From assembly GCA_001543015.1 (NCBI GenBank), contig LFLC01000033.1:1-32034 (forward strand): a DNA stretch of 32,034 nucleotides. Reading direction: 5' to 3'. Under the pieces are notes generated by a model. It had not been told where the DNA came from, ran no database searches, and saw only the letters and a program-made list of their open reading frames with translations. The stretch's first letter is position 1. Each line of letters starts with the position of its first letter. A program made the translations under genes and the position numbers. This document shows, piece after piece, positions 1,947 through 32,034 of the stretch. The DNA comes from Nitrosopumilus sp. LS_AOA. Lineage in GTDB: Archaea > Thermoproteota > Nitrososphaeria > Nitrososphaerales > Nitrosopumilaceae.

Positions 1947-2255
1947 ATGAGTTTATTACAAGAAAAATCTGTAGAAGCAACTATTGAAGTTGCATATTCA
2001 GATTTAAGAAAATATGATATGAAAATAGAACATCAAAAAACTTGTTCACTTGTAATTAATATCATTAAACATATTTTTGAAAAACATAATATTAAACTAA
2101 ATGAAATATCAATACCTGTAAACAAAAACACAGATGTTGACATATATTTTGAGATCACTTTAGATTCTTTAAGAAATATAAATGATATTAAAAAAGACAT
2201 AATGGAAAAAACAGTAGGCAGTTTGTCTTCGATAGAAATTTTAATTGATGTATAG
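1947..2255 (+). CDS. hypothetical alpha/beta protein (102-104 aa)
   Basis: A small cytoplasmic-looking protein with no signal peptide or membrane segment. Its pattern of strands (VEATIEVAY, SISIPVNK-like) and lysine-rich helices suggests a compact alpha/beta fold. I do not recognise a family. ATG 1947 gives MSLLQEK; an in-frame GTG at 1941 would add two residues and overlap the preceding small frame. The gene at 2280 follows 24 bp later in the same direction, so the two are probably co-transcribed. A long opposite-strand frame (2033-2545) overlaps it but is judged a shadow. Confidence 0.6.
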   Translation: MSLLQEKSVEATIEVAYSDLRKYDMKIEHQKTCSLVINIIKHIFEKHNIKLNEISIPVNKNTDVDIYFEITLDSLRNINDIKKDIMEKTVGSLSSIEILIDV

Positions 2256-2279
2256 TTATAATATTTTGAGGTTTTATAA

Positions 2280-2723: not shown

Positions 2724-2774
2724 TTAAAAAATTTAAACTTTAAATTTTTAAACAACAACCACCATTCAAAATCT

Positions 2775-2848
2775 AGCTGGGTGGGGAATCAAGTTGTCCC
2801 GATGGGCTCATAACCCGTAGATCAATGGTTCAAATCCATTCCTAGCTA
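2775..2848 (+). tRNA. initiator tRNA-Met (CAU)
   Basis: It folds as a full cloverleaf of 74 nt without intron. The acceptor is AGCTGGG/CCTAGCT with discriminator A, the D-stem GGGA/TCCC, the anticodon stem ATGGG/CCCGT around loop CTCATAA, and the T-arm AATGG/CCATT with loop TTCAAAT. The A1-U72 pair and three successive G-C pairs at the base of the anticodon stem are the known marks of archaeal initiator tRNA, which sets it apart from elongator Met or Ile2 tRNAs with the same anticodon. CCA is not encoded. Confidence 0.93.
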
Positions 2849-2981
2849 TAAATTATGACATATATTATTCACTAAATAACATCAGTACAATCAGAATAGA
2901 ATTATGGAAAAATAGAATTGAACCTAAAAATTAAAGAGTAACAAGATCCATTTTATATCATAGTATGATCGCTTCATATTA

Positions 2982-4316: not shown

Positions 4317-5236
4317 AAAAATTACTAATTCCAACAACTCTTAGCGTTATAGTTATAGCTCTAGTTGTCTTCATAGCCTTTGATATGAATACTGATTCTG
4401 AAATAGTACAAATTGAAGAAACTGGAATAAGAGTAATTGATGTATCAGCCCAAATTGAAAAACATGATGCAGATCTTGAAGCAGGAATTCTACCAATGTC
4501 TGAAGAAGATATACTTCTTGTAGAATTAAAGTCACAAGGACGAAGTGACGAGGATATTGAAAAATATTTAATATTTTATGATCCTCCAGAATACGATGAA
4601 ACTTCTCTAGTAATTCCAGATGATTTATTGTTGAGACATTTTATTCATCATGATAAAATGTTTGAAGATGTAACTTACAAAACTTTAGATTATGATTATT
4701 TGAGTAATTTATTTGGTGATGATTATAGTGAGATAGTAATTTACAATATGGAAATCAAACATGATTACTATGAACCTTCATTTCCTTTAAAATTATCTGG
4801 ATTAACTGACGTAACTGAAGAAGAAATTAACGAAGCAAGAATTGAAATTATAAAATGGGTTGATGAAGGTGATGAAACTGCAACTATAATTTTCTTATCT
4901 AAATATTCCATAGATGATGATATGTATAGGAATGAATTTTTCTATCGTGATGGTGGAATTCAAATTAACATATCTCCTAAAGAAGAACTATCAGAAATTG
5001 AAATAAAATCGATGGGTACTTCTAAATACGATACTCCTCTAAATGTCAATCTTAGTAATAATCTTCAAGCTGGTTTAGCATCTTTAGATGATAAAGATTG
5101 GCAGGGTATACTTAACAAAAAATCTTCATTGTGGTTCATTGACAATGAAAATAGTGTTTCTATAAGTTCAACTCTAAACGATGATCAACTAATGAGATTA
5201 GGATTATTACTATCTACTGAAAATCCATTTAGATAA
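4310..5236 (+). CDS. membrane-anchored acidic extracytoplasmic protein
   Basis: The 308-residue product starts at TTG 4310, within the last codons of the fibronectin protein gene. An N-terminal hydrophobic helix (about 7-27, LIPTTLSVIVIALVVFIAF) lacks a clear cleavage site, so it probably acts as a membrane anchor. The rest is strongly acidic (many D/E) with no cysteines and no recognised motif. The translational overlap suggests it works with the fibronectin protein, perhaps as its anchor or partner on the outer face; that is inference. Confidence 0.7.
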   Translation: MLKKLLIPTTLSVIVIALVVFIAFDMNTDSEIVQIEETGIRVIDVSAQIEKHDADLEAGILPMSEEDILLVELKSQGRSDEDIEKYLIFYDPPEYDETSLVIPDDLLLRHFIHHDKMFEDVTYKTLDYDYLSNLFGDDYSEIVIYNMEIKHDYYEPSFPLKLSGLTDVTEEEINEARIEIIKWVDEGDETATIIFLSKYSIDDDMYRNEFFYRDGGIQINISPKEELSEIEIKSMGTSKYDTPLNVNLSNNLQAGLASLDDKDWQGILNKKSSLWFIDNENSVSISSTLNDDQLMRLGLLLSTENPFR

Positions 5237-5361
5237 TATTAAATTTATCATTATGAAGACAGATCCAATGGATAAAGTAAAAATAATTATTAAAATATTT
5301 TTAGTTCATGTCTTGTAGAAATGTTATTTTACTATTAACTATCAAATACCAATTATCTGCT

Positions 5362-5387
5362 GTAATTTCAAAATTACGGTTAAATAG
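5362..5387 (+). promoter_or_regulatory. palindromic operator next to a TATA box
   Basis: An inverted repeat GTAATTT-CA-AAATTAC (5362-5377) ends three bases before a TATA-like TTAAATAG (5380-5387), where the TFB recognition element would lie. The start codon of the winged-helix gene follows 25 bp after the box centre, so the gene is probably leaderless. A protein on this palindrome would block TFB. The adjacent regulator is the natural candidate, by autoregulation. Confidence 0.5.
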
Positions 5388-5407
5388 TTTTTTTACAATA
5401 CCCTGAT

Positions 5408-5719
5408 ATGAGGAATGGAAAATATTTTGAGTATTTTTTAATAATTTTGAATCACCTAATAAACAAAGATTCAATTAATTCGAAATTAACTAAATTTTCA
5501 GAGGAATTAGTTATACCAAAATCATCATTTTATGAAACATTGCATAGGTTAGAAAGAGAGGGATTTATAGAAATAACAATAAAATATTATGATGGAAATT
5601 TTGATCACAGAGTCAAAAAAATATTACAAATCAGTGTCCAACCAAAAGGTATTGATTTTTTTTGGAGAAATGTGACCAATGTTGATACATCCAAATTAGA
5701 AAAAAGTGTCCATGATTAG
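5408..5719 (+). CDS. small winged-helix DNA-binding regulator
   Basis: The 103-residue protein carries a winged-helix fold. An N-terminal helix (YFEYFLIILNHLI) is followed by a helix-turn-helix (about 28-55; IPKSSFYETLHRLEREGF is the recognition part) and a wing (IEITIKYYDGNFDHRVKKILQ strands). The layout is like PadR/MarR-type small archaeal regulators but lacks their C-terminal dimer helix. It probably binds DNA as a dimer; the palindrome just upstream suggests autoregulation. Two small genes follow at 5756 and 5901. Ligand and targets cannot be told from sequence. Confidence 0.7.
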   Translation: MRNGKYFEYFLIILNHLINKDSINSKLTKFSEELVIPKSSFYETLHRLEREGFIEITIKYYDGNFDHRVKKILQISVQPKGIDFFWRNVTNVDTSKLEKSVHD

Positions 5720-5755
5720 ATATACGCTTATAATGATTTTTTGTAAAAAATCAAT

Positions 5756-5893
5756 ATGATTCACATTGTCAATAAAGAACAAAAAATGAAAGAGATATTC
5801 GAAATAGCTCAAAAAGTAAAAAGTGGGAAAATAGTACCTGCAAACACATATGACAGTATTGATGATTTTGCAAATAAATTGAGATCAAAGTGA
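5756..5893 (+). CDS. small hypothetical protein (45 aa)
   Basis: ATG 5756 to TGA 5893 encodes 45 residues, mostly helical and charged (MKEIFEIAQKVKSGKIVPA), ending FANKLRSK. The pattern suits a short helix-loop-helix peptide. It lies 36 bp after the winged-helix gene and 7 bp before the next gene, so the three could share a transcript. No family is recognised. The tight spacing is the main support that it is real. Confidence 0.45.
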   Translation: MIHIVNKEQKMKEIFEIAQKVKSGKIVPANTYDSIDDFANKLRSK

Positions 5894-5900
5894 TTCTAAA

Positions 5901-6155
5901 ATGTGGGGAATCATAGTAGTAAACCAAAAAGATAATGATTTATTATTTGAATTACCAAAAGAATCATTTGAAGAAGTCATAAGTTATTTTACTGATATGA
6001 GAAATAAATTCTCAAAATTTGATAAAACTGTTTTTTGTAGTAGTGGTATTCATCAAATAGAATCATATGATAAGGATGGTCAAAGACTTTCAATACATTA
6101 TCACATAGATAATGAGGATAAAATATTCAAAATAACTAAAGCTGAGTTATGGTGA
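5901..6155 (+). CDS. small hypothetical protein (84 aa)
   Basis: The ATG at 5901 opens an 84-residue protein with a helical segment (SFEEVISYFTDMRNKFSKF) between beta strands (WGIIVVNQ, RLSIHYHI, KIFKITKAELW). One cysteine, no signal peptide and no membrane segment are present. I do not recognise the family. It ends a cluster of three small genes that begins with the winged-helix regulator at 5408. Confidence 0.5.
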   Translation: MWGIIVVNQKDNDLLFELPKESFEEVISYFTDMRNKFSKFDKTVFCSSGIHQIESYDKDGQRLSIHYHIDNEDKIFKITKAELW

Positions 6156-6346
6156 TTAATTAAAAAAATTCATAACAGAAAGATCCATAATGTATAATTT
6201 ATCAATATAAAGGATCTCTAAGATTATTTGACCTGTAGATGATACAGCATATCTATCAGATAAGTTTAAGATCTACTGCGATCAGAAATTATAGAATGAA
6301 ATCCTCACAAAGTTTCTTCAAAAGTCATTGTGGGGGATTCTATTGT

Positions 6347-6439
6347 TTATAGCACTACTTTGATTATGTCTTTACCAAAGACATAGGCTAGTCCTACAAT
6401 AGTAAGGACTAGTCCAGTAGTGATATGAAATTTTTTCAT
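6347..6439 (-). CDS. single-helix membrane mini-protein (30 aa)
   Basis: The reverse strand from ATG 6439 to TAA 6347 encodes MKKFHI, a hydrophobic helix (TGLVLTIVGLAYVFG) and KDIIKVVL. This is a plausible 30-residue inner-membrane peptide with a basic N-terminus. It resembles in layout the mini-proteins at 9289 and 13625. Three strong inverted repeats cover nearly the whole frame (GTGATATGAA/TTCATATCAC, CTAGTCCT/AGGACTAG, TATGTCTTT/AAAGACATA), so the segment could instead act as structured RNA or DNA. Function unknown. Confidence 0.5.
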   Translation of the reverse strand: MKKFHITTGLVLTIVGLAYVFGKDIIKVVL

Positions 6440-6622
6440 ATCACATCGTTGCATACAAAATTATCATTTGAACCTGTTTGATTCAGATAATTTGACCTGT
6501 AAATTATAAAAAATATCGATCAACTTATCATTCTAATTTACCATGTGAGGTAAAATCATTCTAGAAATCACCAGAACAAAATACTCAAAACTGTTAAATT
6601 TCGCTCAAATTTCTAGTCTTTT

Positions 6623-6743
6623 GGAGGAGTAATCAAGCCTGGCCAAAGTAAGCACATTTGCTTTTGGACATGCAGGACTTAAGATCAAATAATGGGTGAT
6701 CCTGTCTTTCAGGAGTTCGTGGGTTCAAATCCCACCTCCTCCA
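6623..6743 (+). tRNA. tRNA-Leu (UAA) with two introns
   Basis: The acceptor GGAGGAG/CTCCTCC, a long variable arm and T-arm GTGGG/CCCAC with loop TTCAAAT define a class II tRNA with anticodon TAA. Two insertions break the cloverleaf. The first is 21 nt (6649-6669) in the D-arm. It folds as bulge-helix-bulge: CCAA pairs with TTGG, with 3-nt bulges AGT and ACA cut as AG^T and AC^A. Removing it restores D-stem pairs 10-25, 11-24 and 12-23. The second is 15 nt (6684-6698) at the usual 37/38 site and restores the stem CAGGA/TCCTG. CCA is not encoded. Confidence 0.9.
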
Positions 6744-6749
6744 CACAAT

Positions 6750-7136
6750 CTATCTTGGATTTTTGATACCTTTAGAGTTTAGAACTTCGTAGACATCTGG
6801 TAATGAAAATACAAAACCAACATGTACACAATCTTTTTCATCACAGAGCTGGCAGAATAATTCTCCTTTTTGAACTGCAACTTCAGCAATTCTATTTCTA
6901 ATATTGTCTTTTAGTATAACACGATCATCATCGACTGAAATTTTTTCAATCTTTGGAGCATATCTTGCAAAGGTTTTGTCCTTTTGCATCATCTCCTCTA
7001 ACATGTAAGTTACATAACCTGAAAAACTGTTGACCCCTTTCATTGTCAGGTCGTCTTTACTCTTTTGATAAATATCGTGGAATTTATCGTAGACTGTTTC
7101 TGATACTGTAATTGATTTGAATCCGGCTTTTGGCAA
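6750..7136 (-). CDS. ribbon-helix-helix-like protein with a C-terminal Cys/His cluster
   Basis: The 128-residue product uses a TTG start at 7136. The N-terminal half (FKSITVSETVYDKFHDIY, then SFSGYVTYMLEEMM) has the strand-helix-helix pattern of ribbon-helix-helix DNA-binding proteins. The second half has C95-x2-C98-x4-C103-x-H105, a likely zinc site resembling a short SWIM-type finger. A TATA-like box (CATTATATAG on this strand, about 7173-7182) and a small inverted repeat CCTTA/TAAGG (7146-7163) lie upstream. The combination suggests a zinc-bound transcription regulator in the cytoplasm; the target is unknown. The gene ends 7 bp from the tRNA-Leu gene. Confidence 0.6.
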   Translation of the reverse strand: MPKAGFKSITVSETVYDKFHDIYQKSKDDLTMKGVNSFSGYVTYMLEEMMQKDKTFARYAPKIEKISVDDDRVILKDNIRNRIAEVAVQKGELFCQLCDEKDCVHVGFVFSLPDVYEVLNSKGIKNPR

Positions 7137-7286
7137 TTTACTTTTCCTTACCGTACAATAAGGTACTCAACTATATAATGTTTTATTTTAATGGTGCTGT
7201 AGTAGTTATCGGTTGATCTTCTACTTGTTACCCTTAGGTTGATATGAAAATCAAAACTAAAGTATTATTTTATCATAATATTCTAT

Positions 7287-7442
7287 ATGTTTCAATGTCC
7301 TAAATGTGGTTCAAAGTTTACAGAAGAAAAACGTCTAAAAATACATTTTAAAACCCATGAAAAAAGAGATGCAAAAAATAAGATATCAAAGAAAACAACA
7401 ATGCCTGATTTTGATAAACCTGATTTTTCACAGGTAATGTGA
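7287..7442 (+). CDS. single C2H2 zinc-finger mini-protein (51 aa)
   Basis: ATG 7287 to TGA 7442 encodes 51 residues. Residues 4-24 form a classical C2H2 finger (C4-x2-C7-x12-H20-x3-H24) of the form FQCPKCGSKF...IHFKTH, followed by a lysine-rich linker and an acidic tail. The metal ligands and the hydrophobic core (F11, L17) are all present. It probably binds nucleic acid or protein. It lies 57 bp before the HTH/B12-like gene and could be co-transcribed with it. Confidence 0.7.
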   Translation: MFQCPKCGSKFTEEKRLKIHFKTHEKRDAKNKISKKTTMPDFDKPDFSQVM

Positions 7443-7499
7443 GATACGTCAATGTTGGTCTGAATTAGTCTTTATACAATACTATAATCCAAAAGCACT

Positions 7500-8393
7500 A
7501 TGGGTAGGGGATATTCAACTGAGGATATCAGAGAAAAACTAATTTTAATTTTAAAAGATTCTAACTCTGGAATGTCTGGAGTTGAGATTTCAGAAAAAGT
7601 CAATATCAATAGAATTACAATGATAAAATATCTCAAAGTTTTTGCAGCTGAGGGATTACTACGACAAAAAAATATTGGTAATGTTACTTTATGGTTTTTG
7701 GAACCTGGTCAAGAATCATTTGTTTTTCCAGATGATTATTTCAAAGTAACATCGAGGTATGCTGAATACTTGATCAAAGGTACAGAAGATCAAGTATATT
7801 CCTTGATTAGAAATTGTCTGCATTCTGGTGCAATTATAACTCGTTTAATTATTGAAGTAATTCTACCTGCAATTGATTCTGTAAAGAATTTGTATGATGA
7901 GGGTAAGATTGGAACTTCAGAATTAAACTTACTTCAAACAACTATCTCAAAATCACTCCAAATCTTTAACCAATTACGGGTAGTATCTGAACCTAAAAAG
8001 AACATAATAGTTCTCGCAGCTGATGCTCAAAGTAATCTAATTTCTGAAGCATCATCATCTTCATATCATTCTAATGGTTGGAATGTTTTTCATTTAGGTG
8101 ATATGTCATCTGCCATCAATGTTTTGTTTGATCTCGATTTTCAAAAATTAGTTGGAAAAATCTGGAAACAAAAACTAGGTATTTTGATTGTAGTTGTTTT
8201 CTCACAAACTGGTCAGGGACTAAACTTTTTTGCAGATTCAATAAATCCAATAAAAGAAAAATCTGGAAAACGTATGAAATTAGTACTATGTGGAAAAATA
8301 TCTAAAAAAAGTAAAATCCAGTCTGATCTGACATCTGAAAAAATTGAAGATATTTTACAATGGTCTCAAACTGTATTTGAAAATTTAAAATAA
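7500..8393 (+). CDS. HTH regulator with a CarH-like B12-binding fold lacking the cobalamin ligands
   Basis: 297 residues. An N-terminal winged helix (about 5-70; SGVEISEKVNINRITMIKYL) is followed by a four-helix cap domain (about 82-160, YAEYLIKGTEDQVYSLI onward) and a Rossmann-like domain (about 165-297, NIIVLAADAQSN ... NVFHLGDMSS). The order matches light and B12 sensors of the CarH/CarA/MlrA type, though the HTH is archaeal rather than MerR-type. Aligned by eye to CarH, the axial histidine is serine (DAQSN region), and the cap W...EH motif reads Y...LN. It therefore probably does not bind cobalamin in the usual way and may sense another ligand or none. Cytoplasmic transcription regulator; targets unknown. 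Confidence 0.72.
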   Translation: MGRGYSTEDIREKLILILKDSNSGMSGVEISEKVNINRITMIKYLKVFAAEGLLRQKNIGNVTLWFLEPGQESFVFPDDYFKVTSRYAEYLIKGTEDQVYSLIRNCLHSGAIITRLIIEVILPAIDSVKNLYDEGKIGTSELNLLQTTISKSLQIFNQLRVVSEPKKNIIVLAADAQSNLISEASSSSYHSNGWNVFHLGDMSSAINVLFDLDFQKLVGKIWKQKLGILIVVVFSQTGQGLNFFADSINPIKEKSGKRMKLVLCGKISKKSKIQSDLTSEKIEDILQWSQTVFENLK

Positions 8394-8399
8394 TGAAAA

Positions 8400-8474
8400 T
8401 GGGCCCGATGTGATTCGAACACATGACCTTTCGATTATCAGTCGAACGCTCCAGCCAAGCTGAGCTACGAGCCC
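8400..8474 (-). tRNA. tRNA-Ile (GAU)
   Basis: On the reverse strand the acceptor GGGCTCG pairs with CGGGCCC, the anticodon stem is TTCGA/TCGAA around CTGATAA (anticodon GAT), and the T-arm is ATGTG/CACAT with loop TTCGAAT. Discriminator A, 75 nt, no intron, no encoded CCA. It lies between the convergent ends of the HTH gene and the thioredoxin-like gene. Confidence 0.95.
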
Positions 8475-8507
8475 ACGAACAAATCTCTAGGCAAGAGTCA
8501 TTTAAGT

Positions 8508-9062
8508 TTAATTTTCTTTCCATTTGATTGAACAGCCAATTGACGGGTCAAAATCTTTTTCAATTTTTTCATTTGCAAGCAGTTTTTGCATATTGATAAT
8601 CATTGTCTTTTCTGTAGCCTTATCTTCAGGTTTCATGGCATTATCTAACTTACCGTGAAAAACTAGCTGTTTTTGACTATTGAACAAGAATGGATCTGGT
8701 GTACACATTGCACCATATTTTTTTGCAATTTCTTGAGTTTCATCAACTAAATAATCAAATTCAAATCCTTTCTCTTTTGCTGTTTGCTTCATTGCATCAA
8801 AACTATCTTCAGGATAATCAGTTGAGTCATTACTGTTAATTCCTATGATTGCAATATCTTGGCCACATTTTTCATATAGCTCGTTTAGAGCATCTACTTT
8901 TGCCTTTACGTATGGACAATGATTGCACATGAAAATTATCAAAATTCCTTTGTAACTACTGTAATCATTTAGAGAATGTTTTTTGTCATCAATTCCTAAT
9001 AATTCAAAATCTGGAGCAATGTCTCCTGTTTTTAGTTTAATTTGTGATTCTAAAAGTACCAT
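8508..9062 (-). CDS. thioredoxin-fold (AhpC/TSA-type) redox protein
   Basis: 184 residues from ATG 9062 (a TTG two codons earlier, at 9068, is a less likely start). The protein has the peroxiredoxin/thioredoxin fold: an N-terminal GDIAPDFELLG strand, a hydrophobic strand ending in the active site C46-N-H-C49-P, a helix with YVKAKVDALNELY, and the later cis-proline region CTPDPFLF. The CNHCP motif with an AhpC/TSA-like frame is typical of the widespread thioredoxin family proteins of about 180-200 aa. It probably acts as a cytoplasmic disulfide reductase or peroxide-linked redox protein, with no signal peptide. The substrate is unknown. Confidence 0.85.
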   Translation of the reverse strand: MVLLESQIKLKTGDIAPDFELLGIDDKKHSLNDYSSYKGILIIFMCNHCPYVKAKVDALNELYEKCGQDIAIIGINSNDSTDYPEDSFDAMKQTAKEKGFEFDYLVDETQEIAKKYGAMCTPDPFLFNSQKQLVFHGKLDNAMKPEDKATEKTMIINMQKLLANEKIEKDFDPSIGCSIKWKEN

Positions 9063-9142
9063 GAACAAATTATTCTGTTTTCAAATAAAATTCTTGCCAA
9101 GAAGACAACAATTAAAATCCACACTTTGAGCATTCTTTGTGT

Positions 9143-10642: not shown

Positions 10643-10650
10643 TTTAAATG
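10643..10650 (+). promoter_or_regulatory. TATA box of the 10675 gene
   Basis: GTTTAAAT lies with its centre about 28 bp before ATG 10675, the archaeal TATA spacing for a leaderless mRNA. This decides the start: the earlier in-frame ATG at 10648 overlaps the box and cannot be transcribed from it. Confidence 0.6.
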
Positions 10651-10674
10651 CCAAAAGAAATGCTAATGTATATT

Positions 10675-11370
10675 ATGAAATTAAATAAAATTTTCATTAT
10701 TTCTATAATTACATTGTTTGTTGTAACATCAGGTCAGATGGCATTTGGTTATGGTGGACCACCTGCACAAAGTAGTGCTAATAATTACACTGTAGAGATT
10801 TACACTGACAATGAATCATACATGCTTGGAGACACTATCACATTTACTGGTACTGTCAACAAATATGATGATGGTAGAAATTTAAGAATTACAATTTTTG
10901 ATTCTACTGATCGTTATCTAATAACTCAAAAAACTTCAGTTAATCCTGATGGCACATTTTCACATAGTATAGAATTAAACAAAAAATTCTCTGATGGTAA
11001 ATTTATCGTCAAAACTCAATATGGTAGTACAAACACTACAGTCAAAATAACATCATTTGTAATATCTTCAAACAATGATACTATAATTTCTCAAGATAAT
11101 GAAATTCCTTCTTGGCTAAAAACTACTGTAGGATATTGGGCAGATGGTGTTTCTTCAGATGGTGAGTTCATTAATGCAATTAAATTCTTAATTGAAGATG
11201 GAATAATACAAATTCCTTCAACAACTCAAGGTACTGGTAATACAGATCAAATTCCTTCTTGGCTAAAAACTACTGTAGGATATTGGGCAGATGGTGTTTC
11301 TTCAGATGGTGAATTCATTAACACAATTAAATTCTTAATTGAAAATGGATTAATGACAATATCAAATTAA
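10675..11370 (+). CDS. secreted protein: one MG2-like domain plus two GYW repeats
   Basis: 231 residues from ATG 10675. A signal peptide (LNKIFIISIITLFVVTSG, then AFG) is followed by one beta-sandwich module with the SYMLGDTITFTGTV signature. Two nearly identical C-terminal repeats follow (residue stretches encoded by 11104-11202 and 11251-11349), each with P-S-W-L-K-T-T-V-G-Y-W, D-G-E-F-I-N and KFLIE. This helical GYW repeat recurs once in the protein at 30866. In thaumarchaea it is attached to many secreted proteins; its role is unknown, perhaps binding to the cell surface or S-layer. A longer start at 10648 is possible but would put nine residues before the signal peptide. Confidence 0.78.
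   Translation: MKLNKIFIISIITLFVVTSGQMAFGYGGPPAQSSANNYTVEIYTDNESYMLGDTITFTGTVNKYDDGRNLRITIFDSTDRYLITQKTSVNPDGTFSHSIELNKKFSDGKFIVKTQYGSTNTTVKITSFVISSNNDTIISQDNEIPSWLKTTVGYWADGVSSDGEFINAIKFLIEDGIIQIPSTTQGTGNTDQIPSWLKTTVGYWADGVSSDGEFINTIKFLIENGLMTISN
11104..11349 (+). repeat. two-copy direct repeat encoding the GYW domain
   Basis: The segments 11104-11202 and 11251-11349 (offset 147 bp) differ at only a few bases, several of them synonymous. Each encodes one GYW domain. The closeness of the DNA copies suggests a fairly recent internal duplication. Confidence 0.85.
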
Positions 11371-12390: not shown

Positions 12391-13563
12391 ATGGACCTAT
12401 ACAAATCAAAGTATTCAGATGGAAAGACCGATGGAAGAGATTCAAGACGAGACAATGAACCATATCGATCTTATAGAAACTCTGGTGATGATAGAGGCTC
12501 AAGAGATGGCGATAGAGAATCTACAACTGTAACTTGTTCTGATTGTGGAAATCAATGTACAGTTCCGTTTGTTCCAAGAAATGACAAACCAGTTTACTGT
12601 AGTGATTGTTTCAGACAACACAAACCAGATGATTCAAGAAATGATAGATATTCAAGAGATGATAGAGGTTCAAGAAATTCAAGAGATGATAGATATTCAA
12701 AATATTCAAGAGATGACAGAGGTTCAAGAGATAATGATAGAGAAGATACCGAGGTAACTTGTGCTGATTGTGGAAATCAATGTACAGTTCCGTTTGTTCC
12801 AAGAAGTAACAAACCAGTTTACTGCAGTGATTGTTTCAGACAACACAAACCAGATGATTCAAGAGATGATAGACGTTCAGGAAATGATAGATATTCAAGA
12901 GACGATAGAGGTTCAAGATATTCAAGAGATGACAGAGGTTCAAGAGATAATGATAGAGAAGATACCGAGGTAACTTGTGCTGATTGTGGAAATCAATGTA
13001 CAGTTCCGTTTGTTCCAAGAAGTAACAAACCAGTTTACTGCAGTGATTGTTTCAGACAACACAAACCAGATGATTCAAGAGATGATAGACGTTCAGGAAA
13101 TGATAGATATTCAAGAGACGATAGAGGTTCAAGATATTCAAGAAATGATAGAAATTCAAGATCATCATATGGACGAGAATCAAGTAGAGATAGTTCTAGA
13201 TCAAGAAATCCACGAAATGACAAATTTTCAAAAAAACAAGAGAGTTTCTTTGCAAATGGTTCAGACAAATTTTATGAAACAATTAAAGAAAAATTATTTG
13301 AAATTTTGGGTGGAAAAACTTGTTCCAATTGTGGCTTTAAAGATGAAAGAGCTTTGGGTATTACTCCAGTATCTGGTAATGATTCTAATGATAATGGACG
13401 TGGTGGAGATGCATCATCATGGGGAAAATACATTTCAGCACCTGACCTTGCTCGAGAAAATCTAAAGGTATTATGCTTAAACTGTAATCAAATAAGAGAA
13501 CCTGCATCAAAACCAAAAGAAGATTCTCCAAAACCAAAAAAGAGTAAATATTTTCCTAGATAA
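12391..13563 (+). CDS. CxxC-repeat zinc protein with Arg/Ser/Asp linkers and a degenerate HNH-like end
   Basis: 390 residues. Three copies of a C-x2-C-x17-C-x2-C zinc domain (first cysteines at residues 49, 124 and 196; core VPFVPR...KPVYC) are joined by low-complexity linkers of SRDDR/RGS/DRYS repeats. This is the known CxxC-x17-CxxC domain of short archaeal proteins. A C-terminal domain (about 290-375) has C-S-N-C-G-F, D-E-R-A-L and L-C-L-N-C-N, like a small HNH domain, but where HNH nucleases have D-H after the RAL segment it reads T-P. It is therefore probably a binding domain, not a nuclease. The Arg-rich linkers suggest RNA or ribonucleoprotein binding (inference). The second and third zinc units are almost identical at DNA level. 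Confidence 0.75.
   Translation: MDLYKSKYSDGKTDGRDSRRDNEPYRSYRNSGDDRGSRDGDRESTTVTCSDCGNQCTVPFVPRNDKPVYCSDCFRQHKPDDSRNDRYSRDDRGSRNSRDDRYSKYSRDDRGSRDNDREDTEVTCADCGNQCTVPFVPRSNKPVYCSDCFRQHKPDDSRDDRRSGNDRYSRDDRGSRYSRDDRGSRDNDREDTEVTCADCGNQCTVPFVPRSNKPVYCSDCFRQHKPDDSRDDRRSGNDRYSRDDRGSRYSRNDRNSRSSYGRESSRDSSRSRNPRNDKFSKKQESFFANGSDKFYETIKEKLFEILGGKTCSNCGFKDERALGITPVSGNDSNDNGRGGDASSWGKYISAPDLARENLKVLCLNCNQIREPASKPKEDSPKPKKSKYFPR
12704..13136 (+). repeat. 216-bp tandem repeat within the CxxC gene
   Basis: Segments about 12704-12920 and 12920-13136 are nearly identical, with a period of 216 bp (72 codons), each holding one zinc domain plus linker. The first zinc unit (from about 12535) is an older, diverged copy. 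The copies suggest recent unequal recombination, so unit number may differ between strains. Confidence 0.85.
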
Positions 13564-19221: not shown

Positions 19222-19295
19222 ATATAATCGGTTTATTGATATAATCCGAGTATAAGCCATAGGTTTAAGTATTGAGTTAGTTGATCAAATATTGA

Positions 19296-20399
19296 ATGTC
19301 CACTATTCTATCTAATGAGCGAAATAAAGAAAGTTTTGAAGAAAAAATCAAGGCTAAATCTCTAAACACCCAAAGAAATATCAAATATGCCATAAAGAAT
19401 TTTGAGAAATTTTGTTTAGCAAAGTATGATCTTTCTGCTGATATGATAATTAAAGAATACAATAAAGCTGATCAAGATCAGCTTTTCGATTCTCTCCAAG
19501 CTTGGATTAATTGGAATAAAGAAAATGGAATAAGCCCTAATGTGATAATTATGTGGTTTTCATTTTTGAAGAAATATCTTAAATACCAAAAAGTTAAACT
19601 ATACACTGAAGAAGCTAAAGATAATTTGGATTTTCCTCATTCTGTTAGAATTGAAAAAGAACCATTAACTAAAGACCAAATTCGGAAAATTTTAACCGTT
19701 GCTAGTTTTAAGAATAGGTTAAGAATTATTGCACAAATTTCAAGCGGTTTAAGACGTGGTGAATTATTAAAATTACAAAAAAAGCATTTTGATTTAACAT
19801 ATTCTAGAATTATGGTTAAAGTCCCTGCTGAAATTACAAAGTCAAAAAAGACAAGAACTGTATTTTTTACTAAAGAAATTCAAGTTGATCTTACCAAAAT
19901 ATTAAATAAATTAAATGATAATGATTTTGTTTTTGGCAGTGATAAAGTAAAAAGCCTCAATATTGGGGATGCTTATCAACAGGCAATTAATAGATATTTA
20001 GTAAAAACTGATTTACATCAAACTTATGAAAATGGAATTAGAACCATTACAACTCATTCTTTTAGATCATATTTTATCACTAGATTTTCAAGACATGATC
20101 CTAATTTGGCTAAATATTTTGCAGGTCAAGATCAATCTAAAGATTTACTTGTTTATGATAGATTAACTTTAGAAGAAAAATTAGAAAAATTTTTAGAAAT
20201 TGAATCTGATTTATTAATCTATGATGATGATAAAGAAGATAAACAAAGTAAGGTTATAGACGCACTTGAAGAAAAAATACAAAAACTAACCAAAGAAAAG
20301 GCTGAATTAAAAGATAAGGATTCTAATAATGATGATCTATATGATATGGTATTAGAATTAAAGAAAAGACTTGATGAATCACAATCTAACAAAAAATAA
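19296..20399 (+). CDS. tyrosine recombinase/integrase
   Basis: 367 residues. The N-terminal core-binding domain (about 15-115, LNTQRNIKYAIKNFEKF) is followed by a catalytic domain with R153 (SSGLRRGELLKL), likely K182 or K184, H254-x-x-R257 (THSFRSYF) and the probable nucleophile Y287 (VYDRLT). A charged coiled-coil tail (about 325-367) extends beyond the catalytic domain. It should cut and join DNA for integration and excision of the element. A TATA-like GTTTAAGTA (about 19262-19270) lies some 28 bp before ATG 19296, so it is probably leaderless. Its site near the left end of the variable region fits an integrase at an element boundary. Confidence 0.88.
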   Translation: MSTILSNERNKESFEEKIKAKSLNTQRNIKYAIKNFEKFCLAKYDLSADMIIKEYNKADQDQLFDSLQAWINWNKENGISPNVIIMWFSFLKKYLKYQKVKLYTEEAKDNLDFPHSVRIEKEPLTKDQIRKILTVASFKNRLRIIAQISSGLRRGELLKLQKKHFDLTYSRIMVKVPAEITKSKKTRTVFFTKEIQVDLTKILNKLNDNDFVFGSDKVKSLNIGDAYQQAINRYLVKTDLHQTYENGIRTITTHSFRSYFITRFSRHDPNLAKYFAGQDQSKDLLVYDRLTLEEKLEKFLEIESDLLIYDDDKEDKQSKVIDALEEKIQKLTKEKAELKDKDSNNDDLYDMVLELKKRLDESQSNKK

Positions 20400-21260: not shown

Positions 21261-21425
21261 ATGAATAACAAGAAAAATACTTCAATGCAAATTAGTAAAG
21301 TTACTTTAAAACGATTATCAGAATTTGGGGAATTTCAAGAACAGTATGAACCAATATTGATTAGACTTTTAGATCATGCCGAAAAATGCCAAAAATTCCT
21401 AAAAAATAGCGAGGATGAGAAATAA
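21261..21425 (+). CDS. ribbon-helix-helix-like mini-protein (54 aa)
   Basis: ATG 21261 to TAA 21425 encodes 54 residues. The pattern is a short strand (SMQISKVTLKRL), a first helix (KRLSEFGEF) and a longer helix (YEPILIRLLDHAEKCQKFL), as in ribbon-helix-helix repressors and antitoxins. Its stop overlaps the start of the next mini-gene (TAATG). It would act as a dimer on DNA; the direct repeats just upstream are the natural targets. No partner toxin is evident. Confidence 0.6.
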   Translation: MNNKKNTSMQISKVTLKRLSEFGEFQEQYEPILIRLLDHAEKCQKFLKNSEDEK

Positions 21426-21544
21426 TGGCTAAATCTAAAAAATGCCAAATTTGTAATTATTCATTAAAAAATCACAGTATTGAGAAATTATCTTCATGTA
21501 TTGAAGAATTGAGATCAAAAAATTCGAGGAATCATAATGGCTAA
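21425..21544 (+). CDS. CxxC mini-protein, copy 1 (39 aa)
   Basis: ATG 21425 overlaps the stop of the previous gene by one base (TAATG). The 39-residue product begins MAKSKKCQICNYSLKNHSI and carries C-x2-C plus a later cysteine (LSSC), so a small zinc site, perhaps completed by dimerisation, is possible. Its last codons overlap the start of the next, similar mini-gene. The chained overlaps suggest translational coupling. Function unknown. Confidence 0.5.
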   Translation: MAKSKKCQICNYSLKNHSIEKLSSCIEELRSKNSRNHNG

Positions 21545-21644
21545 ATCTAAATATTCAATTTGTAATTATTCATTAAAAAAAGACAACATTGAGGAATTAT
21601 TCTCATGTATTGAAGATACAATCTTGGAAAATAATAGAGGTTAA
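21537..21644 (+). CDS. CxxC mini-protein, copy 2 (35 aa)
   Basis: ATG 21537 lies 8 bp inside the previous gene, in another frame. The 35 residues begin MAKSKYSICNYSLKKDNI and are clearly a duplicate of the 21425 product, but the first cysteine of the CxxC is replaced (YSIC), so metal binding is doubtful. About 85 bp of DNA is repeated between the two copies. It could be a decaying copy. Confidence 0.45.
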   Translation: MAKSKYSICNYSLKKDNIEELFSCIEDTILENNRG

Positions 21645-22623: not shown

Positions 22624-23586
22624 ATGTATAACATTGAAAATACTCTAAATAATATTAATGAAAATATTAAACAATTAAATCAAAATTCAAAATTAATTCA
22701 AGATGATCTAAACTTAATCAAAAAATCTCTTAACATTTTACCTGATAAATTTACACAAATTGAGGATATTGAAAAAAGCATTATTAAATATGAAAATTAT
22801 GCTCAAAGCAATAATCTAAATCAAACTACAATTAATAATCAAAAATCAGCAATTAGAGGATTCTTAGTATTCTCAAAAGGAATCATAAACCCTGATACAG
22901 TAAAAAATTATCTTAATTCTAATGATAAAAACACATGGAAATCAAATCAGGTCAAAGCTCTAAGAAAATACATACGGGATTATCTAAAACTTGGAAACTG
23001 GATTAATAAATTTGAATTCAAAAAAGATAAAGCTAAAATTAAGAAAATTCCTAATGTAGATGAATTATCACAATTTTGTAGTTCACTTCATTTTCCTACA
23101 TGGTTAATTTTTCTCTTAACGTATAATTCAGGATTAAGAATAGGTGAAATTTTAGCCCTTAAAGTATCTAACATTAATTTTGAATTAAACATGATAGACG
23201 CTAGTAATATTCACAAATCAGAAATTAAGGAATCATGGATCAGCTTTTTTACTGATCAAACAGCTAATTTATTAAAACAAACAATTAGTCAAATTACCAA
23301 TATTGAAGATGACCCTTTAATTTTTGATATTTCTTACAAATCAATTCAAGAATCATTTAAACAAGTTTCAGAAAATACAGGTATTAAGATAACCCCTCAT
23401 CTTTTAAGAACAGCATTTACAGAAAAATGTACCGAAGCCAATATCTCAGAAAAATACATTAATGCTTTTTGTGGGCGAGTAAATCAAAAAATTATTTCAA
23501 AGCATTATACTGATTATTCCCCCCAATCACTAAGAAGACAGTATGATAAGGTCGAATCATTTTTAGTTCTTAATTTTAAAAATTAA
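22624..23586 (+). CDS. second tyrosine recombinase/integrase
   Basis: 320 residues. An N-terminal coiled coil (about 1-40) precedes a core-binding domain (about 45-130) and a catalytic domain with R172 (NSGLRIGEILAL), K198, H259-x-x-R262 (TPHLLRTAF), G284-R285 and the probable nucleophile Y295 (SKHYTDYS). It differs strongly from the recombinase at 19296, so it was gained separately or serves another role (resolution, inversion or integration of a nested element). It lies directly before the repeat-rich non-coding region, which may hold its sites. Confidence 0.85.
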   Translation: MYNIENTLNNINENIKQLNQNSKLIQDDLNLIKKSLNILPDKFTQIEDIEKSIIKYENYAQSNNLNQTTINNQKSAIRGFLVFSKGIINPDTVKNYLNSNDKNTWKSNQVKALRKYIRDYLKLGNWINKFEFKKDKAKIKKIPNVDELSQFCSSLHFPTWLIFLLTYNSGLRIGEILALKVSNINFELNMIDASNIHKSEIKESWISFFTDQTANLLKQTISQITNIEDDPLIFDISYKSIQESFKQVSENTGIKITPHLLRTAFTEKCTEANISEKYINAFCGRVNQKIISKHYTDYSPQSLRRQYDKVESFLVLNFKN

Positions 23587-28400: not shown

Positions 28401-28602
28401 TACTTACAAAAATGATTTAGATTTAGAAAAATTAGATGATACTGTAATTTCTATACTATTTCAATCCAATAATTTAAAACACATTCAAAAAATTAAACAA
28501 ACTATACGATTGGAAATTATGAATAAAATAAATCAAAGAGGTAGATTAAATGCGTATATTAAAGAAATTAAAAATCTAAATATTGAATTCATACCTGAAT
28601 AA
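25477..28602 (+). CDS. type IIG restriction-modification enzyme (Eco57I-like, single chain)
   Basis: 1041 residues. The N-terminal part (about 1-200) has a PD-(D/E)xK-like nuclease core with the E-x-K motif at E91-V-K93 (CFEVKG). A helical linker leads to an N6-adenine methyltransferase: SAM motif I DPACGSGAFL at about 456-465, a second acidic motif in YGVDLNPESIEITQLS, and catalytic NPPYV at about 589. The C-terminal third (about 740-1041) is a TaqI/Eco57I-type target-recognition domain (SGKSGSALQLL near 950). One protein would thus cut and methylate the same asymmetric site, protecting the host of the element. It is not a PglX-like protein, which lacks the nuclease. No separate methylase or specificity gene is seen. 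Probably an element-borne defence or addiction gene. Confidence 0.85.
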   Translation: MQSLNPLFNKKAIKELVNDVQISDKQKESSKKWLDLLDKNKLENEKSNYPKFMSIVLDNILGYPIEEIDFEKNNVEFSFSNKDRKKILCFEVKGTITKDLHAIQHRSKKEHSTPIKQTWDYMGSMGLDYGICTNYKEFILITKEYGYSKEYNFDFTTIKNNESKLKEFIGIFSKERIIESGFIKKLHTQSQNVEKEFTKEFYKLYHETRLMLKMSFEENQKVSSNEAIYYTQLFLNRLIFIFFVEDRGFISDSKLFRKRILNILDQGQLTEHSKKIYDDIKELFISFDKGSDILGVFGFNGGLFNGIMPEKILFPDLKDDTFFNDVKQNSKLLKSTKLNDNEEIIIKKHNSLNPIISNLLIMDSFDFNTEVNVNILGHIFEQSISDLEELKKSGISSRKKEGVYYTPEYITDFICRNTIIPHLSKNGTNDISKLIDEYKNDIETLEKKFNEIKILDPACGSGAFLIKAIDILLEINREIQNKKNTKYTIEQKQITHDFDEESQIRFIVENNIYGVDLNPESIEITQLSIFLKIASNTRKLIGLSKNIQNGNSLISNKEIDVKAFVWADKFPEILSHLIKDNGFDIIIGNPPYVRQETLNNKESMILPKNHTLKLPENFIIDSKSDLSCYFHYHALNLLKDGGILGFISSDSWLHFDYGKNIRKLFLDNCDILEITKTNFNVFEDADISTAIILLKKSQTKDHNALFKTVNKGGFESNNFTKTEKSQNKLNTDNWNNNFSDFKLMPKIDMVKMEDVGIIKRGKTTGCNDFFILTKDVIEKYGIAEQYVYPCVSRNITSIDLNDVNPDEYLLNVNETKGQLTKTKDGKKILEYIEKMGSKKIIPKKGSLSKECKIKDLETISNRKIWYSLGLDKSQLPLIILARFAHGRMKIYENNGNYFSRDNCVWFIPHSEKFVKPILAYLSSSYFTLLSEICGHSQSGKSGSALQLLTGDWKKIYLPDLTKIDKICEILTDTWNTYKNDLDLEKLDDTVISILFQSNNLKHIQKIKQTIRLEIMNKINQRGRLNAYIKEIKNLNIEFIPE

Positions 28603-28682
28603 ATAGAAAAAAATAGCTAAACTCGGTATTATTTTTTATAATAATCCTAATATTCATTAACTTCTTTATCTGATATTATAAC

Positions 28683-28838
28683 ATGAAGATACTATATTAT
28701 TGTAAAAACAAACATCTAGTTATAGAAAAAACAAGTCCTGATACTGTCATGCTATCCATTACAGATAAAGACGTTATGACAAAATGTGAAGAATGCGATC
28801 AGAAAATAGATATTCCAAATATCAAAATTATCGTTTAA
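28683..28838 (+). CDS. small Cys-rich protein (51 aa)
   Basis: ATG 28683 to TAA 28838 encodes 51 residues: MKILYYCKNKHLVIEK at the start and KCEECDQKIDIP near the end. C7, H11 and the C-x2-C pair could bind one zinc, like a small zinc ribbon. It follows the restriction enzyme by 80 bp in the same direction. No family recognised. Confidence 0.5.
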   Translation: MKILYYCKNKHLVIEKTSPDTVMLSITDKDVMTKCEECDQKIDIPNIKIIV

Positions 28839-28938
28839 CTATAATTTACTTTTTTAAATTATAATCACATTTTAAAATAGAGCTATGGTAAATTAAAAAA
28901 ATGGATCAGTTTAATTAATTGTCTGATTTATTACTATT

Positions 28939-29256
28939 ATGACAAAATCAGTTTATGATCAAAACTGTTTATCATGCAATAGTGTAAACTTGGAGTATTT
29001 TGGAAATTACTATATTAATTGTTTTCAGACAAACGCTAATGGCTGTGAACCTATGGTAAATTTAATTCATTGTAGGGATTGTCATTTTGTATCTGTTGTT
29101 ATGATAACTAAAGGAGAGGTTGATAATCATAGAAAAATTGGCAAAAATCCTCAAAATGAGACTATTCAGAATATATCAAATAATAAACCAGACAGTAAAC
29201 CCATCAGTTCGTATTCCTTATCCCTAATTGCTGATTTAATGAAAGTTGATGAATAA
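28939..29256 (+). CDS. zinc-ribbon-like protein (105 aa)
   Basis: 105 residues from ATG 28939. The N-terminal half has C-x2-C (NCLSCNS), two further cysteines (NCFQ, GCEP) and C-x2-C (HCRDCHF), a likely zinc ribbon. The C-terminal half is polar (NHRKIGKNPQNE onward) and ends with SYSLSLIADLMKVDE. The end of the gene lies in a segment repeated just after it (29252-29288), so the C-terminus may have been reshaped by duplication. A nucleic-acid- or protein-binding role is a guess. Confidence 0.6.
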   Translation: MTKSVYDQNCLSCNSVNLEYFGNYYINCFQTNANGCEPMVNLIHCRDCHFVSVVMITKGEVDNHRKIGKNPQNETIQNISNNKPDSKPISSYSLSLIADLMKVDE

Positions 29257-29288
29257 ACCAAACAGTAAACCCATCAGTTCGTATTCCT
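29182..29288 (+). repeat. 37-bp direct repeat, period 70 bp
   Basis: AATAAACCA, one variable base, then ACAGTAAACCCATCAG and TTCGTATTCCT occur at 29182-29218 and 29252-29288 with one mismatch. The first copy is inside the zinc-ribbon gene; the second runs through its stop codon. It looks like a small tandem duplication. Confidence 0.8.
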
Positions 29289-29304
29289 GTTATTGTTAAA
29301 AATT

Positions 29305-29330
29305 AAACCGATAATGTTTGAAATCGGTTT
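29305..29330 (+). terminator. hairpin after the zinc-ribbon gene
   Basis: AAACCGAT (29305-29312) and ATCGGTTT (29323-29330) form an 8-bp stem with a 10-nt loop about 50 bp after the stop. The T run is short, so it may be a transcript end or an RNA stability element. Confidence 0.4.
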
Positions 29331-29380
29331 TAGAATTCTACATCAAAATCTAAATAATTTTATAAAATCACAAAAACTTC

Positions 29381-29495
29381 AATCCCAAAATCCACACTTT
29401 CTTTTTTTTATTATTTAGTTTTTATATCCCTAAAATTTCATTTTATCATTGAAAATTCTAATTGGTATTCTATTATCTGTTGTAATAATTTCAGG
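29381..29495 (+). repeat. promoter plus signal-peptide segment, copy 1
   Basis: Almost the same sequence as 30800-30912: ATCCCAAAATCCACACTTTC, a T-rich stretch, a TATA-like TTTATATCCC, the TTG start and the codons of the signal peptide MKILIGILLSVVIISGI. The identity stops soon after the signal peptide, where the two genes encode unrelated proteins. Confidence 0.85.
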
Positions 29496-30078
29496 AATTG
29501 GGTTGGCATATTCACAAACAGAATTAGATGTTATTGGGGAAATTGAAAAACTACAAAAAAAGATTGATACTTTTCAACGGATGATTGATAGGTTACAGGC
29601 ATTGATTGATTTATCACAATCAAGGATTGATGATTTAAAAAATGAAAATTATGTTTTAGAAAAGTTTCCATATACACTTAGTCAAGGTGAAGTTGAGGAT
29701 AATTGTAAAATAACAATTTTAGGATTTGAACTTTATCAAGAAGGAAGTGAAAGAGACCGATACATAATAGGATATGATACAACAAGCATGAAAAAAGATA
29801 TATCTGGATGTGATTCTGCAATTTATTCGATTTATGCAGAAACTGAAGATGGTTTGAATTTAAATACTTGTGGTTGGTGTGATATAGGAAGATCTCATTT
29901 GTATCCTAATGATAAAATGTATACTAGCCCAGCTACATCAGATCAGGGTTTTAAATTAAATCATAATGATAAAGTAAAAAGAATTGCAATAACAATTAGT
30001 GATCGTCATGGAATTTATGAAGGAGACCCATACACTAGATACTTTGAATTCAAAGTAATTGATAATCCTTATAGATAA
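29449..30078 (+). CDS. secreted coiled-coil protein
   Basis: 209 residues from TTG 29449, placed by the TATA box (TTTATATCC about 28 bp upstream). Signal peptide (1-22, ending LAYSQ), then a coiled coil (about 25-68, IEKLQKKIDTFQRMIDRLQ onward) and a C-terminal beta-rich domain (about 80-209) with four or five cysteines (NCKI, GCDS, NTCGWCDIG). The coiled coil suggests oligomers at the cell surface. No family recognised for the C-terminal domain. Confidence 0.7.
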   Translation: MKILIGILLSVVIISGIGLAYSQTELDVIGEIEKLQKKIDTFQRMIDRLQALIDLSQSRIDDLKNENYVLEKFPYTLSQGEVEDNCKITILGFELYQEGSERDRYIIGYDTTSMKKDISGCDSAIYSIYAETEDGLNLNTCGWCDIGRSHLYPNDKMYTSPATSDQGFKLNHNDKVKRIAITISDRHGIYEGDPYTRYFEFKVIDNPYR

Positions 30079-30351
30079 TATTTTAGAGTAAACAAGCGTT
30101 ATTTGTTCTGATCTAAAATATCAATTAATAGAAAATTCATATTTCATTCCTATCACGATAACCCGACAGAACCATAAAACAATATTTTTAAATAAAATAT
30201 TTGAGATACCAAATTGAGCCTGAATTCTGAAACTCATTTTCTAACATTCTTAGTTTCATTTTCGCAAAAAAAGGAATGATGATGGCTCGTAAATCAAAAT
30301 AATTAATCAAATATAGCAAAGTCTAAATCAAATTAAAATATCATTAATCCA

Positions 30352-30801
30352 ATGACGAAAAAAATCGTAATTAGTGCTATTGTATTAATGGCAATAGTAA
30401 CAACAATGGGGATAATGCCCGCATACGCTACTATACATTCAACACAAATTATACAACGTGTTGAGGGAGTAGATGAAAGATCAACATACATATCTGAAGA
30501 ATCAACTCAAAGGTGTGCAGGTGTTAATGACGCATGCGGGTCAAAGCTAAAAGTCAAAAATGGATATTATAACGACTTCATTTACACATACTACAAGATA
30601 GGTGGTAAAGGTGTAATGTGTGACATGAACACCATAATAAAAATAAATGGTGAGATAATAGCTGATACCACATACATAGAAAAGGAAACATACGGTAAGT
30701 GGAAATATGGAGTTCATCTTGCAGATAATTTACAAGAAGGTGATACCATCGAAACCATAACAACATTTAGTAGTTGTTGGAAACAAACATTTACACGATA
30801 A
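30352..30801 (+). CDS. small secreted cysteine-containing protein (149 aa)
   Basis: 149 residues with a signal peptide (1-26, VISAIVLMAIVTTMGIMPAYA). The mature part is beta-rich with four cysteines (RCAGVNDACG, VMCDM, SSCWK), enough for two disulfides. No family recognised. Between 30079 and 30351 nothing but AT-rich sequence is seen. The stop codon at 30801 touches the repeated promoter segment of the next gene. Confidence 0.7.
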   Translation: MTKKIVISAIVLMAIVTTMGIMPAYATIHSTQIIQRVEGVDERSTYISEESTQRCAGVNDACGSKLKVKNGYYNDFIYTYYKIGGKGVMCDMNTIIKINGEIIADTTYIEKETYGKWKYGVHLADNLQEGDTIETITTFSSCWKQTFTR

Positions 30802-30912
30802 TCCCAAAATCCACACTTTCTTTTTTTTATTATAGTTTTTATATCCCTAAAACTTTCATTTTTCATTGAAGATTCTAATTGGTATTTTATTATCAGTTGT
30901 AATAATTTCAGG
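30800..30912 (+). repeat. promoter plus signal-peptide segment, copy 2
   Basis: This copy starts at the stop codon of the preceding gene, matches 29381-29495 with few changes and small indels in the T-rich part, and ends in the signal peptide of the 30866 gene. The sharp start at a stop codon suggests insertion of the whole unit. Confidence 0.85.
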
Positions 30913-31732
30913 TATTAGTGTATCATATTCTCAAAGTGATTCAATACCTGCATGGATTAAAGGAATAGCTGGATATTGGGTAGAGGATAAGATAACGGAT
31001 TCAGAATTTATAGAAGCATTAGAATTTTTAATTGAATCAGATGTAATCAAAGTTAGTAATAATAAAATAATGGAATTAGAAAATCAATCAGATATTATAA
31101 AAAAACAGTCATTCAAGAAACAATATCCCAACGGACAATTAGAAATGGAAATTAAATTCTATGAGAATGGACTTTATGAATCAGAAAAAAGATATTATGA
31201 AGATGGAATATTAGAACTTGAAACTAAATTCCAGGATAATGGATATCTTAAATCATTAATGTCATATTATGAAGATGGAGCATTAGAAGTTGAAAGCAAA
31301 TATCATGATGATAATGGATATCCTAAATCAGACCAATGGTATTATGAAGATGGAATAGTAAAAGCTGAAATACAATATCATGATGATAGTGGATATACTA
31401 AATCAGATAAACGGTATTATGAAAATGGATCAATAGAAATTGAAATCCAATATTATGAAGATGGATATCCTAAATTAGAACAACGGTATTATGAAAATGG
31501 AGTATTAGAAGTTGAAAGCAAATATCATAAGAGTGGATATATAGAATTAGGTAAATGGTATTATGAAAATGGATCAATAGAAATTGAAATCCAATATCAT
31601 AATAATGGATATCCTAAATTAGAACAACGGTATTATGAAAATGGAATAGTTGGATCAACATCAATTTATAATTTTGATGGATATATGGTATCAGAAAAAT
31701 ATTATGATTATGATGGAAATTTGATACAATAA
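30866..31732 (+). CDS. secreted GYW-domain protein with MORN-2-like repeats
   Basis: 288 residues from TTG 30866. The signal peptide MKILIGILLSVVIISGI is shared with the 29449 gene. Next comes one GYW domain (about 28-65; IPAWIKGIAGYW, D-S-E-F-I-E-A-L-E-F-L-I), the same domain as in the 10675 protein. From about residue 85 to 285 there are about ten repeats of 20-22 residues of the form RYYENG-x3-x-E-I-x-Y-x-x-x-G-Y-x-K, like MORN-2 repeats of YwqK-type proteins. These would make an extended beta-hairpin rod outside the cell. Whether it binds lipid, sugar or protein is unknown. Confidence 0.8.
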   Translation: MKILIGILLSVVIISGISVSYSQSDSIPAWIKGIAGYWVEDKITDSEFIEALEFLIESDVIKVSNNKIMELENQSDIIKKQSFKKQYPNGQLEMEIKFYENGLYESEKRYYEDGILELETKFQDNGYLKSLMSYYEDGALEVESKYHDDNGYPKSDQWYYEDGIVKAEIQYHDDSGYTKSDKRYYENGSIEIEIQYYEDGYPKLEQRYYENGVLEVESKYHKSGYIELGKWYYENGSIEIEIQYHNNGYPKLEQRYYENGIVGSTSIYNFDGYMVSEKYYDYDGNLIQ

Positions 31733-31779
31733 TTAATTTATCAAAATTTTGACTTGTAATTATCAATTAAATTTTCATA

Positions 31780-31938
31780 ATGACTAAATCAAACAAAGAA
31801 GAAATTAAAGACTATGAGGATTCTAATGATAAATTCATCAAATATTGTAAATTCTGTAAATATTCAACACTTCGTTCATCAATGGATAATTCAAAATGTT
31901 CAATGTGTCAGAAATTTTATGATTCAGGAAAAAAATAA
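31780..31938 (+). CDS. zinc-ribbon mini-protein (52 aa)
   Basis: ATG 31780 to TAA 31938 encodes 52 residues. An acidic start (NKEEIKDYEDSND) is followed by C-x2-C (YCKFCKYS) and C-x2-C (KCSMCQKF), about 14 residues apart, a complete small zinc ribbon. It resembles in size and layout the mini-proteins at 21425, 28683 and 28939, so such ribbons recur across the variable part of the window. Confidence 0.6.
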   Translation: MTKSNKEEIKDYEDSNDKFIKYCKFCKYSTLRSSMDNSKCSMCQKFYDSGKK

Positions 31939-32034
31939 ACATTATTTTTTTTAAAACTTAACAAATTATTCACAAAAAAAGACAAAAGTATAAAATCAAG
32001 ATTCACAATAATAAAACTATGAAAATAAATAGTA

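Follow-up and report, generated by a model that had tools for sequence, protein, structure and literature searches.

How did two neighbouring genes that encode different secreted proteins come to begin with almost the same 130 or so nucleotides? The genes lie near the end of the window, a stretch of 32,034 nt that makes up the whole of contig C61 in a draft genome of 1.93 Mb and 67 contigs. In the following, C-numbers denote contigs of this genome (G000) and other G-numbers denote other genomes. The gene content, which includes a secreted protein ending in PEFG on contig C12, appears to be that of a Nitrosopumilus-type archaeon of the ammonia-oxidising kind. Many secreted proteins of such archaea have no known relatives. 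The initial annotation had interpreted the shared start as a ready-made export cassette that is copied in front of new surface domains and builds a variable surface repertoire. The features on which the analysis turns are as follows.

29381-29518, + strand: cassette copy A1, consisting of 68 nt of upstream DNA, the TTG start and the signal-peptide codons of gene 1; 90% identity to A2
30800-30935, + strand: cassette copy A2, consisting of the upstream region, the TTG start and the signal-peptide codons of gene 3; recognised by identity to A1
29419-29427, + strand: TATA-like box TTTTTATAT of A1, 21 nt before the TTG; putative function, from the sequence and archaeal promoter spacing
30836-30844, + strand: TATA-like box TTTTTATAT of A2, 21 nt before the TTG; putative function, from the sequence
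29449-30078, + strand: gene 1 (209 aa), signal peptide, predicted coiled coil and orphan C-terminal domain
30352-30801, + strand: gene 2 (149 aa), small secreted orphan with a different signal peptide, between A1 and A2
30866-31732, + strand: gene 3 (288 aa), signal peptide, GYW module, short coil and MORN_2 repeats
30929-31054, + strand: GYW module of gene 3; 79% DNA identity to C19:1152-1277
31130-31678, + strand: MORN-like tandem repeats of gene 3 in units of 72 nt (24 aa); repeat family D1, MORN_2 profile
19228-19243, + strand: left att-like 16-bp repeat TCGGTTTATTGATATA of the island; right copy at C21:943-958, single copy in G015
19296-20399, + strand: tyrosine integrase 1 of the island; Pfam Phage_integrase, 1.9e-12
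22624-23586, + strand: tyrosine integrase 2 of the island; Pfam Phage_integrase, 2.5e-14

A shared start in front of unrelated proteins

A1 and A2 could be aligned over 139 columns with 89.9% identity (E 3e-44), a score 26 s.d. above that of dinucleotide shuffles, with flanks (100 bp upstream, 200 bp downstream) that scored at chance level and showed no similarity. The near-identity that the initial annotation had placed in about 115 bp of promoter, TTG start and signal peptide was confirmed, and extends over the full intervals listed above. Its far edge is sharp; genes 1 and 3 begin to diverge at codon 18, and identity drops from about 90% to chance level across a few codons. The second copy was found to begin exactly at a stop codon, as had been proposed, its first two bases being the AA of the TAA of gene 2 (30799-30801). 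Both copies carry the same T8 tract, and repeat analysis found no inverted repeats at the junctions. A 37-bp direct repeat (29182-29218 and 29252-29288, 97%) is located just upstream of A1, and duplicates the 3' end of the gene at 28939-29256 immediately past its stop codon.

Upstream of the TTG (66-68 nt), A1 and A2 differ by no substitution and by indels of 2, 1 and 1 nt, and codons 2-17 carry four silent changes that leave the amino acids unchanged. The upstream DNA is more conserved than the silent sites of the signal peptide (0 substitutions versus 4; rough Fisher p = 0.002, from two sequences only). Since the silent sites have diverged more than the upstream DNA, the copies may be not very recent, or may have been partly homogenised. 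The distance from the TATA-like TTTTTATAT to the TTG is 21 nt in both copies, two indels between box and start cancelling out so that the spacing is kept. We take this distance to reflect an archaeal promoter with a leaderless transcript, and the upstream region is probably such a promoter. The N-termini of genes 1 and 3, called by a simple hydrophobicity rule, are Sec-like, with K, a hydrophobic core and small residues; their signal-peptide junctions read AYSQT and SYSQS, without a lipobox cysteine. The same simple rule gave no indication of a type III or IV translocation signal. Both products are, on these features, predicted to be exported.

The mature parts of genes 1 and 3 are unrelated, as the initial annotation had stated (BLASTP E = 15). 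Gene 3 carries a GYW module and MORN_2 repeats (profile match, E 1.5e-17). The AlphaFold model of gene 1 showed, with low confidence, a helix at residues 2-65 (the predicted coiled coil), and its C-terminal domain did not fold confidently (mean pLDDT about 50). GYW relatives of gene 3 occur in 95 of the 95 congeneric genomes; relatives of gene 1 were found in none of the 95 congeneric or 250 family genomes, relatives of gene 2 in none of the 95, and among the 250 family genomes no source of the mature part of gene 1 could be identified. In a phage collection gene 1 had no match, and the similarity to gene 3 was confined to unrelated MORN-like sequences. Viral contigs gave no match to genes 1 and 2, the primase-like protein of C19 or an exact promoter pattern, nor did genome contigs to gene 1 and the same primase-like protein, and Rfam gave none at 28500-32034. 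Searches of NCBIfam and solved structures returned only weak coiled-coil noise.

The GYW/WW module is about 40 aa long, has the consensus IPxWIKxxAxWWxxxxIxDxxFxxxIxFLIxxxII, often occurs as tandem pairs, and is present at 10648-11370, at 30929-31054 and at about 40 places genome-wide; no Pfam or NCBIfam family matched it above cut-off. Elsewhere in the window, the gene at 12391-13563 contains three internal repeats of 216-225 bp, with copies up to 98% identical, each having CxxC-type pairs and an Arg/Ser/Asp-rich linker.

A decayed copy on a mosaic gene

The initial annotation had suggested a genome search for further copies. This yielded one decayed relic, at C19:1781-1719 (84% over 64 nt, E 1e-10), and left the two copies in the window as the only intact ones in the genome. 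The relic was detected with the gene 3 version as query, and was missed by the gene 1 version. Among 94 congeners, with few candidates scored per genome so that diverged copies could escape, we found no reliable copy and only weak AT-rich matches. A third DNA match at C60:34834 and its counterpart in G015 were judged to be chance, being antisense, AT-rich and both within and beside a GYW gene; matches on C49 and C39 were likewise dismissed as chance, as no signal peptide follows them.

C19 (9.7 kb), which has an integrase and a primase-like gene, is probably part of a mobile element, as its integrase, DUF5906 protein and ParB/methylase protein suggest. The gene with the relic is a mosaic in which a decayed cassette A is followed by a second start, an N-terminal segment and a GYW module. 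The decayed cassette keeps the reading frame and the 21-nt spacing, ends in a stop, and lacks the portion upstream of the TATA-like box. The second start (-40 to +38) matches C27:17159 at 86% over 81 nt, and the mature parts behind the two are unrelated. The GYW module (C19:1152-1277), at 79% DNA identity to that of gene 3, makes its source identifiable. C19 thus shows start-swapping directly. The simplest reading is that cassette A was joined straight to GYW in the ancestor of this gene, as it is in gene 3, and that a different start was later inserted at their junction. An old start that has decayed under a newer one offers a concrete, testable order of events.

The island, and shared 5' ends among secreted genes

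Genes 1-3 are the cargo of an integrated island, which starts at about 19247. G015, a near relative, matches the window at 98% identity as far as 19246 and then runs directly into the next core gene, without the island; in the window genome that core gene lies on C21. The 16-bp repeat TCGGTTTATTGATATA stands at both ends of the island and as a single copy in the unoccupied G015 site, the right end being on C21, which is not joined to the window contig. With two tyrosine integrases, flanking direct repeats and an unoccupied site, the island has the features of an integrated element, and G068 has related integrases in the corresponding position. The island integrases are not adjacent to the A1/A2 repeat, and are not close relatives of the C19 integrase.

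Some further observations concern the island and its site. C21:1-942 (L258) contains a reading frame that we take to be LINE retrotransposon endonuclease-like (IEINPGP...CISETYLDS), and this stretch at the right island end is probably animal host contamination or part of a chimeric contig. The G068 occupant of the site (L135, contig C154 of G068, 304-9135) has helicase, large DNA methylase-like and large ATPase-like genes, presumably a defence system. An imperfect tandem duplication of 83-86 bp (21422-21507 and 21534-21616, 85%) lies upstream of an HNH-like island gene.

The recurrence of such shared starts was assessed by comparing the 5' ends of all predicted genes in 0.77 Mb of this genome (about 40%, the first stretches having been chosen to include GYW genes) and in 0.4 Mb from each of four congeners, five genomes in total. 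Pairs were scored when they were similar across the start codon and had unrelated mature parts, secreted genes being those with a signal peptide by the simple hydrophobicity rule. We found 8 such pairs among 25,640 secreted-secreted pairs, as compared with 1 among 740,876 others (p = 1.4e-11, an optimistic value, as the pairs fall into 6 clusters and are not fully independent). The lone non-secreted pair may be a mis-called start. The six clusters are the window pair, C12, C19/C27, C34, a trio in G093 and a pair in G055; the samples of G001 and G026 contained none. In the C12, G093 and G055 clusters, all outside the window, the shared part includes upstream DNA. In the C34 pair the shared part is confined to the signal-peptide codons, and the G055 pair is messier, as the upstream DNA in common comes from a related preceding gene, of which it is the 3' end. 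The genes of the C34 and C12 clusters are also neighbours.

As a control, upstream DNA was compared alone, giving 7 of 25,640 secreted pairs versus 13 of 738,212 non-secreted pairs (odds ratio about 15). Since upstream-only sharing also occurs between non-secreted genes, the copying of promoters is not in itself specific to secretion; what is special to the secreted genes is that the shared piece continues into the signal peptide. On C42 (L151:6577-10748), universal-stress-protein-like genes and unrelated neighbours have promoter-only similarity of 75-83% over 71 nt. Two secreted genes, L211:3267-3932 and L146:10456-11316, differ in their N-termini and have a common C-terminal segment, C-LIATA-YGSE-PQV--LREIRDN, which may be another sign of mosaic secreted genes.

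These data bear out one part of the proposed export cassette, in that unrelated secreted proteins with a common promoter and signal peptide are found repeatedly, in this genome as well as in two further species, with strong enrichment over non-secreted genes. The C19 relic and the sharp edge at the signal peptide also support it. The distribution does not: this segment is not widespread in the genome or among the 94 congeners, and because every case involves a separate small group of two or three genes, no single ready-made cassette is indicated.

Origin of the shared start, and known systems

We consider it fairly likely that existing 5' ends of secreted genes have been joined to new mature domains, either through duplication or through illegitimate recombination, here as cargo of the island. 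The 115-139 bp repeat would be a shared 5' gene end made up of a promoter, a TTG start and a Sec-type signal peptide. A break at the junction between signal peptide and mature protein, a fusion point that selection may tolerate, would have let this end be fused to mature proteins of different kinds, each thereby supplied with a ready start for expression and export. The signal peptide with GYW, as in gene 3, is probably the older arrangement because the C19 gene keeps the decayed same start and the same GYW module; gene 1 would be the recipient of cassette A, although this direction of copying is one that we infer, and the exchange that made gene 1 is not seen directly because its mature part has no known donor gene. 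The same kind of re-use appears to have been repeated among secreted genes of this genus. Ordinary whole-gene duplication is disfavoured because the similarity does not extend past the signal peptide. If 5' ends are routinely re-used, a single step could yield a new protein that is expressed and exported from the outset.

Other histories would leave a similar repeat. Selection or gene conversion might keep the upstream regions identical because genes 1 and 3 are co-expressed and contribute to one surface structure, a possible, if somewhat unlikely, account. It agrees with the preserved TATA-to-start spacing and with an upstream region free of substitutions where 17 codons have 4 silent changes (p = 0.002 in a rough Fisher test), but the comparison comes from only two sequences and the C19 relic lacks the DNA ahead of the TATA-like box. 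It is unlikely that a whole secreted gene was duplicated in tandem and that quickly evolving mature parts then changed past recognition, leaving promoter and signal peptide recognisable. Secreted proteins can evolve fast, genes 1 and 3 point the same way at a distance of 1.4 kb, and neighbouring genes recur in the C34 and C12 clusters; against this, the fall from about 90% to chance takes only a few codons, the GYW of gene 3 is recognisable genus-wide and has left no trace in gene 1, and in C19 a new start has been inserted between the old start and GYW.

Just as unlikely, or a shade more so, is the insertion of genes 1 and 2 beside gene 3 by a single (Campbell-type) crossover with a circular DNA that carried a secreted gene with a similar 5' end, the repeat being the crossover product. 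Genes 1 and 2 are precisely what the repeat encloses (29381 to 30799), as expected of such an insertion, and the region belongs to an integrated island; yet two different genes would still have had to share a 5' end beforehand, and no close relative carries either state. A further reading, in which an active thaumarchaeal process tied to integrated elements copies promoter-plus-signal-peptide starts in front of new ORFs and continually makes orphan secreted proteins from non-exported or non-coding DNA, is also unlikely. A phase-variable system that switches one cassette between silent mature genes is most improbable. Its geometry would resemble that of some bacterial variable surface loci with common 5' ends and signal peptides (PMC2824730), but genes 1 and 3 each have their own promoter and start, so that neither is silent, neither promoterless mature genes nor inverted repeats at the junctions were found, and the island integrases do not adjoin the repeat. 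For the variable surface repertoire suggested in the initial annotation there is no support here, and we saw no sign of genes that are switched or vary antigenically.

The re-use of 5' ends that we favour has partial parallels. It shares with ordinary tandem duplication the neighbouring position, orientation and similar 5' ends of the genes, but the similarity ends at the signal peptide, with none in the mature protein. In the Vpma/Spma variable surface lipoprotein families of Mycoplasma, the signal peptides of Spma products are homologous, the repeated motifs behind them differ, and the repertoire varies among strains (PMC2824730). The 5' region and signal peptide are likewise in common here, but unlike the Vpma/Spma loci, which have many members, there are two intact members and one relic, no lipobox cysteine, poly-G tracts, shufflon or sign of phase variation, and the mature parts are wholly unrelated. 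Cryptic integrated elements of thaumarchaea have a tyrosine integrase and short direct-repeat att sites, with targets including the 3' ends of protein genes and intergenic DNA (PMC6563490). The island resembles them in its tyrosine integrases, direct-repeat att sites and a site unoccupied in a relative, and differs in its secreted cargo with shared starts; the words "cargo" and "secreted" are absent from PMC6563490. For archaeal shuffling of signal peptides or promoters, including thaumarchaeal surface proteins, no archaeal description was found in the open-licence literature.

The closest likeness in mode of action may be terminal reassortment of bacterial effectors, a concept of Stavrinides et al. 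2006, which is described in PMC5675462 as the fusion of a secretion-signal end to unrelated functional parts. In both cases a secretion-signal end with an unrelated remainder would give a new secreted protein in one step. The A1/A2 arrangement works like terminal reassortment but lacks defining features of it as a family: the signals are of the archaeal Sec type and not those of type III/IV effectors, the promoter is carried along, and no host target is implied. Taken together, the re-use of gene fronts suggests how such archaea acquire new secreted proteins.
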